Source: Akkermansia muciniphila (GTDB lineage: Bacteria > Verrucomicrobiota > Verrucomicrobiia > Opitutales > UBA953). From it: a DNA stretch of 64,000 nt. The translations under genes and the position numbers were made by a program. Positions 32,811-35,464 of this stretch are shown here, piece after piece; within the stretch, counting starts at the first letter, position 1; each line of letters opens with the position of its first letter. The notes under the pieces were generated by a model. The model was not told where the DNA came from, did no database searches, and saw only the letters and a list, made by a program, of their open reading frames with translations. The stretch spans positions 62,001 through 126,000 of the forward strand of contig CALQLO010000001.1 of NCBI GenBank assembly GCA_943331445.1. Reading direction: 5' to 3'.

Positions 32811-33733
32811 AACCCCGCATTCTCATTACGGGCGGGGCCGGCTTCATTGGGTCCCACATCGTTGAACGCTTTCAAGGCCAAGCGGAAATTATCGTCCTCG
32901 ATGATTTGCGTACCGGCTATCGCCGTAACTTAGCAGGATTAGAATGCCGCCTGATTGAAGGATCTATCCTCGATGATCGTGCCCTGGCTGAGGCCATGCA
33001 GGGCGTCGGGCGTGTCTTTCACTTGGCTGCCATGATTTCCGTTCCGGAATCTGTCCAGAAACCCGCCGAATGTGCGGAGCTGAATATCGAGGGAACACGT
33101 CGCGTCCTTGCGGCGGCGTCTCGGGCCGGCGTCAAAAAAGTCCTCCTTGCCTCATCGGCGGCCATCTATGGGGACAATCCGTTAGTCCCTAAACTCGAAT
33201 CCATGCCACCCGAGCCCAAGTCTCCCTATGCCGAGACGAAACTCGCCGGGGAGCACCTGTTAGAGGAATTTCAGAGGGAGCACGGCTTGGCGACCGCCAG
33301 CCTGCGTTTCTTCAATGTCTTCGGGCCGCGCCAGGACCCTCAATCGGCCTATGCGGCAGCGGTCCCAATTTTCATCGCTCGTGCCCTGCGCTCCGAAGAC
33401 ATCACTATCTATGGTGACGGCGAACAGACCCGTGATTTTATTTACGTCAAAGATATCGTCGGGGCACTCGATTTCATGTCGCAATCTCCTGCGTCCGTCG
33501 GGACCTATAACGTGGGTTATGGCCGCCGCCTTTCGATCAAGTCTCTGGCTCAAGAAATCCTAAACCTGACCGCATCGAAGTCCGCGCTCCGTTTTCTCCC
33601 TGGCCGGCCGGGCGACGTGATGCATTCCGTGGCATCGGCAGACAAGCTCAGGCAGACGGGTTGGCTGCCTGCCTATGATGTGCCGGGAGGCCTCGCCGCG
33701 ACCATCCGCTATTTCCAATCACTCAACGGGTGA
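32807..33733 (+). CDS. NAD-dependent UDP-hexose 4-epimerase-like SDR
   Basis: This is an extended short-chain dehydrogenase of the UDP-glucose/UDP-GlcNAc epimerase group. The NAD motif TGGAGFIGSH is at about 8-17, the catalytic serine region is ASSAAIYGD, and SPYAETKLAGE supplies the Tyr-x-x-x-Lys pair. FNVFGPRQDP and GDGEQTRDFIYVKD are substrate-loop motifs shared with WbpP/Gne-type UDP-GlcNAc 4-epimerases. The 308 residues are typical. It overlaps the kinase stop by four bases and ends the amino-sugar operon. In this setting, interconversion of UDP-GlcNAc and UDP-GalNAc is the likely role. UDP-Glc/Gal or another epimer cannot be excluded. Confidence 0.85.
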   Translation: MKPRILITGGAGFIGSHIVERFQGQAEIIVLDDLRTGYRRNLAGLECRLIEGSILDDRALAEAMQGVGRVFHLAAMISVPESVQKPAECAELNIEGTRRVLAAASRAGVKKVLLASSAAIYGDNPLVPKLESMPPEPKSPYAETKLAGEHLLEEFQREHGLATASLRFFNVFGPRQDPQSAYAAAVPIFIARALRSEDITIYGDGEQTRDFIYVKDIVGALDFMSQSPASVGTYNVGYGRRLSIKSLAQEILNLTASKSALRFLPGRPGDVMHSVASADKLRQTGWLPAYDVPGGLAATIRYFQSLNG

Positions 33734-34592
33734 CCGTGAGCGTTGCGTGCAGCGTGTCGGACTTGCCGTCCGAAATATTGAGCCAGAAGTCGTAAACACC
33801 CGGTGCCGGCAGTCGTAATTTGAAAGCCAGGCTGGGCGCTTCGCCGTACTCCCCGCCTTCCAGTGAGGGATGCATGTGTGCGTAGCCCGGTTGCGCCTCC
33901 ATCGGGCCCATCAGGACTGCGTGACCAAGGGAACCCATGATGGGCTGCAATTTGAGTTTCGCACCCGCGGGCCCTGAGAGCTTTACCCGAATAACGGCGG
34001 AGTCGCCGGTGCGTTGAGAGGAGGTTTGCAAACTGACCAACTGATTCCGTGCCGATGGGGTTACGGAGGAGCCGCTCGTGGTTGGTGAGTTCATCTTCGC
34101 CTCTGCCAGTAATACTCGCCCCGAACGTTGATCGGCAAAGTCGACAAAGGCTTGGTAGTTTCCGCCGGTGTTTCCGTTGGAAAAATCCGGTGGAAATTGG
34201 AAATCCCAAGTGCCATCCTCTTGGGCCTCCGGGTGCAGGTGGATGTAAGCAAGGCGGCCGCCGAGTTGACGTAAGTGCAAATGGACTTTCTCGGTGTGGG
34301 TCAGGGCAATCTCATGATTGAGGTAAGCGGTACCATCATCGCGGATGAGTTGGAGCGACCCCTTGTCGCCACTCGGGGCGAGGCGGATATTCAGGCGGAC
34401 GGGAAACTGCAGTGACTTGGGGTGGTAGTAATTTGCTTCCTCATTAATGCCGCAAAACTCAACATCGCCTACCACGACCGGCTGGTGATCGGAGTGTAGA
34501 AAGGCGCACTGGGTGTCCGGTAGCGAGCGTAGCGCGAAATAGCCCAATAAGGCACATCCCGTGATGATCCAGAATTGTCGATTCAAAGTCAT
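33723..34592 (-). CDS. Membrane-anchored His-rich extracytoplasmic protein next to SCO
   Basis: I do not recognise a named family. The 289-residue protein has an N-terminal signal or anchor helix (FWIITGCALLGYFALRSL). It is then entirely beta-like, with two similar halves that each contain a His-rich motif: YIHLHPEAQEDGTW at about 115-128 and YAHMHPSLEGGEYGE at about 238-252. These resemble copper- or metal-handling beta-sandwich (YtkA-like) domains. It overlaps the SCO-like gene stop (ATGA), so both are made together. A role in periplasmic metal delivery is suggested by this pairing only. Its stop lies 11 bases inside the convergent epimerase gene. Confidence 0.68.
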   Translation of the reverse strand: MTLNRQFWIITGCALLGYFALRSLPDTQCAFLHSDHQPVVVGDVEFCGINEEANYYHPKSLQFPVRLNIRLAPSGDKGSLQLIRDDGTAYLNHEIALTHTEKVHLHLRQLGGRLAYIHLHPEAQEDGTWDFQFPPDFSNGNTGGNYQAFVDFADQRSGRVLLAEAKMNSPTTSGSSVTPSARNQLVSLQTSSQRTGDSAVIRVKLSGPAGAKLKLQPIMGSLGHAVLMGPMEAQPGYAHMHPSLEGGEYGEAPSLAFKLRLPAPGVYDFWLNISDGKSDTLHATLTVTR

Positions 34593-35464
34593 TTGTTGGC
34601 GTTAGCCTGAACCAATGCCTTGGCCACATCCTCTGGGTCAAAGGAAGCACCCTCGCGTCGTTGGAGAATGCGCCCTTCGGCGCTGATGAGCAGTAACGCG
34701 GCGTTGTGCACAATGGTACCGTCGTCACGCAAAGTCTGGATGCCATAGTGGCGCATGAGGTCTTTGATTTGCGCCGGATCACCGGTCAGGAACCGATGGC
34801 GTCCATGGTCGATCCCGTACCCATCCGCGTAAGTACGCAGCAAGCCCGGCGAATCGGTTTCGGGATCAAAGGTAATCGTGAGCAGGCGAACCTTCGCGGC
34901 AGCCGGTTGCTTCGCGAGTAAGTCGGCGAGTTGCTTCATGCAGGCGGTCGAGGCGGGGCACATTCGAGCGGAGCGACAACTCGTGAAGATGAAATTGAGT
35001 GCGAGCGGCGAGCCCAGAAAATCTTTTTTCAGGACGAGGTGGCCGTCTTGATCCCAGAGGGCCATATTAGGCATCAAGTCCGCAGGCATGCGGGTTACTA
35101 GCCGACCTTTGTCCAGAGTTTCGCGATGCAGTGAATCGGAGATTTCGGCGATGCGTCGCAAGGATTCCGGTTCGTTCGGGAAGATCGTATCAGCACGTCG
35201 AGGGCCCTCCGCGGTGGTAATAAGCTGCAAGGCGATTTCCCGTCCCGCATAGCCTACCTTGATATCGCCTGTTGAAAAGCGAACGACGATGGGGGTAGGT
35301 TCGACATCGCTCGACACGGGTGCGCCGACCGGCCGCAATTGCAGTGTGGCCATCCCAGTGGCTGGATCGACTTGGGTGACCTTCCCTGTCCGCACGACGG
35401 GCTTATCGGCCGCCTGGGTCACTAAGCATGCCCCGATGAGCAGAATGGCGAACAGATGCTTCAC
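34589..35464 (-). CDS. SCO1/SenC-family protein with CX5CP motif
   Basis: SCO proteins are thioredoxin-fold factors that deliver copper to, or keep reduced, the CuA site of cytochrome oxidase. A signal peptide (MKHLFAILLIGACLVTQAA) is followed by an about 110-residue extra N-terminal beta domain, then the SCO domain. The metal cysteines are in FIFTSCRSARMCP (Cys163 and Cys169), a CX5C spacing in place of the classic CX3C. The conserved histidine is His253 in TIVHNAALLLI, and LTITFDPETD is the usual post-motif strand. It starts with GTG overlapping the ppx stop (GTGA). No oxidase genes are in the window. Confidence 0.87.
   Translation of the reverse strand: MKHLFAILLIGACLVTQAADKPVVRTGKVTQVDPATGMATLQLRPVGAPVSSDVEPTPIVVRFSTGDIKVGYAGREIALQLITTAEGPRRADTIFPNEPESLRRIAEISDSLHRETLDKGRLVTRMPADLMPNMALWDQDGHLVLKKDFLGSPLALNFIFTSCRSARMCPASTACMKQLADLLAKQPAAAKVRLLTITFDPETDSPGLLRTYADGYGIDHGRHRFLTGDPAQIKDLMRHYGIQTLRDDGTIVHNAALLLISAEGRILQRREGASFDPEDVAKALVQANANK

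Follow-up and report, generated by a model that had tools for sequence, protein, structure and literature searches.

A SCO-family protein and a two-lobed membrane partner as a probable copper-loading pair for cytochrome c oxidase in the Opitutales

Two overlapping genes of an Opitutales genome, one for a SCO-family protein and one for a membrane-anchored partner with two H-x-H-P motifs, probably form a module that loads copper into the CuA centre of the caa3-type cytochrome c oxidase. How copper is loaded into cytochrome c oxidase in bacteria without PCuAC and Cox11 is poorly known, and the partner is a concrete candidate, co-occurring near-perfectly with the CuA-bearing subunit II across 43 genomes of one order. 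The SCO protein with its CusF-like domain is the ordinary part of the pair. The partner belongs to a family that is unnamed in the libraries searched, has a well-supported link to the oxidase and turns up as well in copper-resistance loci of both bacterial and archaeal origin; if the proposed role is true, one family would serve both resistance and oxidase assembly.

The gene pair and the partner protein

The window (the whole stretch of DNA analysed, 64 kb) is part of contig 1; the genome measures 2.4 Mb, is split into 83 contigs and is 94.8% complete. The first-pass annotation was correct in the coordinates, strand, residue numbers and ATGA overlap of the pair (Table 1), and likewise in describing a SCO protein with a CX5C motif and a membrane-anchored partner with two similar lobes, each carrying H-x-H-P. 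It had also proposed a search for synteny, and the pairing is indeed conserved: SCO adjoins the partner in 32 of the 35 partner-bearing Opitutales genomes (not adjacent in 3), and the pair is kept in 26 of 27 relative loci, the 27th being a contig that ends within the SCO gene. The named relatives of the locus are nearly all metagenome-assembled genomes (Opitutae, Opitutus or Verrucomicrobia). The gene order lpxR-ppx-SCO-partner is repeated in close relatives; no lpxR or ppx matches were seen beside the pair in regions from other Opitutales families.

Table 1. Features of the locus, in window coordinates
Feature	Position	Strand	Basis or remark
LpxR-like outer membrane protein gene	37346-36387	-	upstream of the Ppx/GppA-type gene
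Ppx/GppA-family phosphatase gene	36384-35461	-	directly upstream of the SCO gene, 4-base overlap
SCO-family protein, 291 aa, N-terminal export helix	34589..35464, GTG start at 35464	-	PF02630, E=1.9e-21; fold match 1xzo
Degenerate CusF-like domain, about residues 22-97 of SCO	35174..35401	-	hhalign through relatives
C163-x5-C169 motif (CRSARMC, C-RSARM-C), including invariant M168	34958..34978	-	alignment
H253, candidate third ligand	34706-34708	-	invariant in alignment
ATGA overlap, SCO stop / partner start	34589..34592	-	sequence
Partner, 289 aa, membrane-anchored, two-lobed	33723..34592, ATG start at 34592	-	AlphaFold2 model, mean pLDDT 88.4
Partner membrane helix, N-terminal, residues 3-23	34524..34586	-	model and hydrophobic sequence
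Partner lobe 1, residues 62-172, candidate site H99, H104, H118, H120	34077..34409	-	alignment
First H-x-H-P motif (HLHP; H118-x-H-P)	34230..34241	-	sequence and alignment
Partner lobe 2, residues 180-289, candidate site M219, H224, H239, H241	33726..34055	-	alignment
Second H-x-H-P motif (HMHP; H239-x-H-P)	33867..33878	-	sequence and alignment

The partner is modelled as one N-terminal helix followed by a body of two beta-strand lobes; the two lobes are homologues by hhalign (probability 96.5, E=8e-10; reversed control 0.5). Both H-x-H-P motifs are present in 37 of 37 Opitutales partners (alignment A1), as are all eight candidate ligands listed in Table 1, so that the pattern (H/M)-x4-H ... 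H-x-H-P is found in both lobes. A chance origin for H-x-H-P was considered and rejected, as the motif is kept in all 37 Opitutales partners and its histidines are invariant in 54 proteins. The motifs have the look of metal sites in a family tied to copper, and together with the conserved pairing they favour the earlier suggestion of metal delivery. The histidines are there, although "His-rich" overstates a content that is mild (13 in the 292-residue open frame).

Searches with the partner gave no match to any Pfam or NCBIfam family and no credible match among PDB sequences. The fold search returned only common Ig-like or fibronectin-like sandwiches: TM by query length was 0.25 or less among the Foldseek matches listed, and VIA gave Z up to 8.7, rated by the tool itself as a common arrangement. 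PCuAC, CopC and YtkA folds were absent from the matches listed.

Co-occurrence with the CuA oxidase

The first-pass annotation had stressed that no oxidase is nearby and had thought the pair different from classical CuA assembly. The absence is true of the 64-kb window, in which tblastn found no match to ctaA, ctaB, coxA, coxB or coxC, but the weight put on it was not warranted, since genes of a caa3-type oxidase lie on contig 14 of the same genome: coxB, whose product keeps the CuA motif intact and carries a cytochrome c domain, together with coxA, coxC and Caa3_CtaG. The genome also has a DUF420 (CtaM) gene, on contig 5. Separateness from CuA assembly found no support either, given a CuA link by neighbourhood and by presence and absence, and a CX5C motif that is not special to the pair; what stands of the original proposal is the observation itself and a metal-delivery pair. 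The location of the pair and the oxidase genes on different contigs in the window's genome does count against a CuA module.

The link was followed in 43 genomes, the members of the window's order (Opitutales) in the phylum sample. The partner and CuA subunit II (COX2, PF00116) are both present in 35 of them and both missing from 7, with COX2 alone in 1 and the partner alone in 0 (Fisher p=2.5e-7, uncorrected for the relatedness of the 43 genomes). The seven genomes without COX2 fall into four lineages, and two of them (G128, G228) share a genus with G163, which has both. The single discordant genome, G223, encodes SCO and a COX2 of a different type (269-aa open frame that matches coxB weakly) but lacks the partner. 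SCO taken by itself marks the oxidase less well: G001, G128 and G228 have it and are without both COX2 and the partner.

As to the suggested check for a link to cytochrome oxidase operons, COX2 is no more than 8 kb from the partner in 20 of 35 genomes and DUF420/CtaM in 25 of 35; in 9 of 35, the window's genome among them, neither is inside that distance. SCO and partner are close to ctaA and ctaB in 13 of the 20 regions opened, 11 of which also have coxB, and the partner in Opitutales often sits beside ctaA-ctaB-coxBAC.

These distributions also bear on an alternative in which the target of the module is CuB or another oxidase (e.g. of the cbb3 type) and not CuA. The 36 of 43 genomes with DUF420 (CtaM) are exactly those with COX2, so co-occurrence cannot separate a CuA from a CuB role; Cox11 is found in none of the 43, which leaves room for a role in CuB insertion, and SCO proteins occur also in genomes without CuA subunit II. 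As to other oxidases, four genomes (G001, G146, G128, G228) have no COX2 and only lower-scoring COX1 types, assumed from score and length to be of the cbb3 or NO-reductase type, and all four are without the partner, which therefore does not follow those oxidases. We consider service to CuB or another oxidase quite unlikely. Among the genomes of the phylum sample that are not Opitutales, 56 have COX2; 3 of these have a match to the partner and 53 have none, so the partner is not a general requirement.

The reading as a CuA-loading pair also suits the complement of known copper chaperones. PCuAC (PF04314) and Cox11/CtaG (PF04442) were each found in 0 of 43 Opitutales genomes, and the YtkA domain (the CtaK type, PF13115) in 3 of 43 and not in the window's genome; control genomes were matched by all three profiles. 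Pfam scans of the partner and its relatives matched neither PF04314 nor PF04442. PF13115 matches 3 of 37 partners weakly (best E=3.5e-4, below the curated cut-off), and its best score against the outside relatives is 24.7 bits, against a cut-off of 25.9. With matches this weak and below the cut-off, the partner is read as CtaK-like in its working and not as a YtkA member. CtaK has one YtkA domain; the partner has two lobes, is anchored by a helix and is not a lipoprotein, and reached the PF13115 cut-off in no scan. The likeness to CtaK/YtkA of Bacillus subtilis lies in the proposed role beside Sco in CuA assembly, in the membrane anchor and in His/Met residues (PMC9145763, PMC13344008). According to those two papers, B. 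subtilis has no PCuAC, and its CtaK mutants, which are similar to Sco mutants, can be rescued with copper; PMC13344008 also supports the action of YtkA domains with Sco. The main text of PMC9145763 contains no mention of Verrucomicrobi or Opitut. With PCuAC the partner would share the role of a periplasmic copper donor in CuA assembly and His/Met ligands (PMC6696091); it differs in its motif, and the PCuAC profile has no match in the 43 genomes.

A working scheme can be drawn from sequence and models. Both proteins begin with a hydrophobic helix that fits export, and the outer part of the partner consists of two homologous Ig-like lobes, each with a conserved set of four possible ligands. The partner might collect periplasmic copper, using one lobe or both, and hand it to SCO (at C163, C169, H253 and perhaps M168) or straight to apo-subunit II, and SCO would reduce the cysteines of subunit II, place copper, or do both. 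The partner would thus fill the position held by PCuAC in many bacteria and by CtaK in Bacillus. CuB would have factors of its own, CtaM (DUF420) and Caa3_CtaG, both encoded in the window's genome. Copper binding and transfer, the identity of the metal, the direction of transfer and the redox role of SCO are what we infer here.

The partner family in copper resistance

In the phylum sample of 288 genomes, a single sequence as query detected homologues of the partner in 37 and a profile detected them in 38, 35 of these being in Opitutales. Plasmids searched by tblastn with the partner from L021 yielded 222 records. Among the matches listed, the plasmid relatives belong to Bacillota, Actinomycetota, Bacteroidota, Cyanobacteriota, Pseudomonadota and Halobacteria, and most are annotated "hypothetical protein" or "heavy metal-binding". 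In 15 regions hand-picked from the 222 records to spread over phyla, a metal (heavy-metal or copper) exporter or multicopper oxidase is near the relative in 13, and a P-type metal ATPase is present in 10, several with CopZ-like proteins and metal-sensing regulators. The other 2 regions (Priestia L135, Planococcus L211) have no clear metal transporter or multicopper oxidase nearby, and none of the 15 has an annotated SCO or oxidase neighbour.

The copper-resistance relatives, such as those beside copZ in Staphylococcus epidermidis plasmids and those with P-type ATPases in Rhodococcus and Rothia, have the two-lobed layout and the histidines in common with the partner, at about 23-34% identity over the tblastn matches. 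With both lobes and the histidines present, the partner belongs with the two-lobed H-x-H-P proteins of copper operons. Six of the seven candidate ligand histidines (H104, H118, H120, H224, H239, H241) are invariant in 54 of 54 aligned proteins (37 from Opitutales and 17 from outside), and H99 is found in 52 of 54. The relatives differ from the partner in lacking an annotated SCO or oxidase neighbour, as in the plasmid regions, and usually in the residue at 219: Met is found there in 37 of 37 Opitutales partners and in 3 of 17 outside proteins, Leu in 14 of 17. The three outside proteins with Met are the one from Legionella and two from other orders of the class, and one of these (G178) adjoins a CusF-SCO fusion with a CX5C motif.

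Such relatives suggest that the fold serves plain detoxification, and the partner itself could be a general periplasmic copper buffer or sponge, its oxidase link reflecting only the need of oxidase makers to control copper. This explanation draws on the plasmid relatives beside copZ, P-type metal ATPases, metal-sensing regulators, CueP and multicopper oxidases. It accounts less well for an Opitutales partner that sits with SCO, often in the company of ctaA-ctaB-coxBAC, that is absent from 7 of 7 genomes without CuA subunit II, and that is set apart by M219 from the 14 outside relatives with Leu. We hold the buffer role to be unlikely. A more ambitious version of the CuA-loading proposal, which we find doubtful, is that the family is an undescribed one of two-Ig-lobed periplasmic copper carriers, its Opitutales member recruited from copper resistance to replace PCuAC and CtaK, with the change from Leu to Met in lobe 2 as its mark and two loaded lobes supplying both coppers of CuA. 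Loading of two coppers by two lobes is speculative, and the two-lobed relatives in copper resistance speak against a CuA-specific reason for the layout.

Two-lobed H-x-H-P proteins were seen in copper or heavy-metal operons at eight loci (L134, L136, L139, L140, L212, L213, L215, L217) of Staphylococcus, Rhodococcus, Rothia, Micrococcus, Streptomyces, Mycolicibacterium, Exiguobacterium and a haloarchaeon, where they are annotated "hypothetical" or "heavy-metal-associated". Pfam scans over the lobes of 8 outside relatives gave no family above its cut-off. A small Cys-rich protein near one partner relative (L115, 7357-7713) has no Pfam match and appears by eye to be of the four-helix copper-storage type. 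In the open-access literature no paper matched HXHP with copper, nor CXXXXXC with SCO1 and copper.

The SCO protein and its CX5C motif

The SCO protein matches PF02630 (SCO1/SenC) over residues 135-265 at 76.9 bits, against a cut-off of 22.8, and is the only PF02630 protein in the window's genome. Its model (mean pLDDT 92) finds solved SCO structures best, with 1xzo at the head (E=9e-13, TM 0.82 by target length). It is like SCO1/SenC proteins, e.g. Sco/YpmQ of B. subtilis, in profile score, in fold and in having two cysteines and a downstream histidine, and it differs in a spacing of 5 rather than 3, an invariant Met before the second Cys and a CusF-like domain in front. C163, M168, C169, P170 and H253 are invariant among 34 aligned SCO proteins. 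The canonical SCO cysteine spacing is C-x3-C; the window's protein has C163-x5-C169, and is for that reason described as one of a CX5C subgroup of PF02630 and not as a canonical SCO.

The extra N-terminal region noted earlier is present, about 110 residues preceding the SCO domain, and sequence comparison indicates that it contains a degenerate CusF-like domain. PF11604 (CusF) matches 15 of 34 SCO relatives and not the window's protein itself at E up to 1. The N-terminal domains of the window's group align with those of the 15 PF11604-matching relatives (hhalign probability 95.5, E=1.6e-8; reversed control 0.4), which supports homology to CusF-type domains, although the methionine-rich residues of these relatives (A-M-T-M type) are lost in the window's protein.

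The thioredoxin-like fold of SCO and a weak match to AhpC-TSA would also fit a thiol-redox pair, in which SCO reduces exported proteins and the partner is a membrane docking protein that carries no copper. The partner does have one invariant Cys in Opitutales (C47, 37 rows), which could serve such a pair, but this residue is missing from the 17 outside relatives, whereas the H-x4-H and H-x-H-P sites are kept across 54 proteins from many phyla, largely in copper contexts. A redox pair of this kind is very improbable.

The CX5C motif has a wider distribution than the pair. A spacing of 5 is found in all 55 relative loci with a SCO match (some being overlapping copies of one place), and a CX5C SCO in another order of the class (L116) adjoins a partner relative. 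Uniqueness of CX5C to this pair was considered and rejected: it is also found in Opitutales SCO proteins that are unpaired or extra copies (L087, L097, L111, L180) and in a second clade. By sequence, CX5C is common in Opitutales. Extra SCO copies with a spacing of 3 also occur in the order (L166, L172, L173, L175, L177-L179, L181), and SCO proteins sampled outside it have a spacing of 3, or of 2 in four cases. A SCO tree of 87 rows, made after 17 duplicate or repeat loci had been set aside, leaves several forks open and has very long branches, so it is taken to show only that the CX5C rows cluster; 3 rows are in no motif group (1 unmatched and 2 mis-measured by the pattern). The second Opitutales SCO clade (L167-L171, L174, L176) has a CX5C motif of another kind, mostly C-P-V-P-E-Y/F-C-P. 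In a metal-resistance region of the Bacillaceae plasmid pGIAK1 (L143), a SCO gene has a gene for a FixH-family protein directly upstream, which may be a one-lobed counterpart of the SCO-partner pair.
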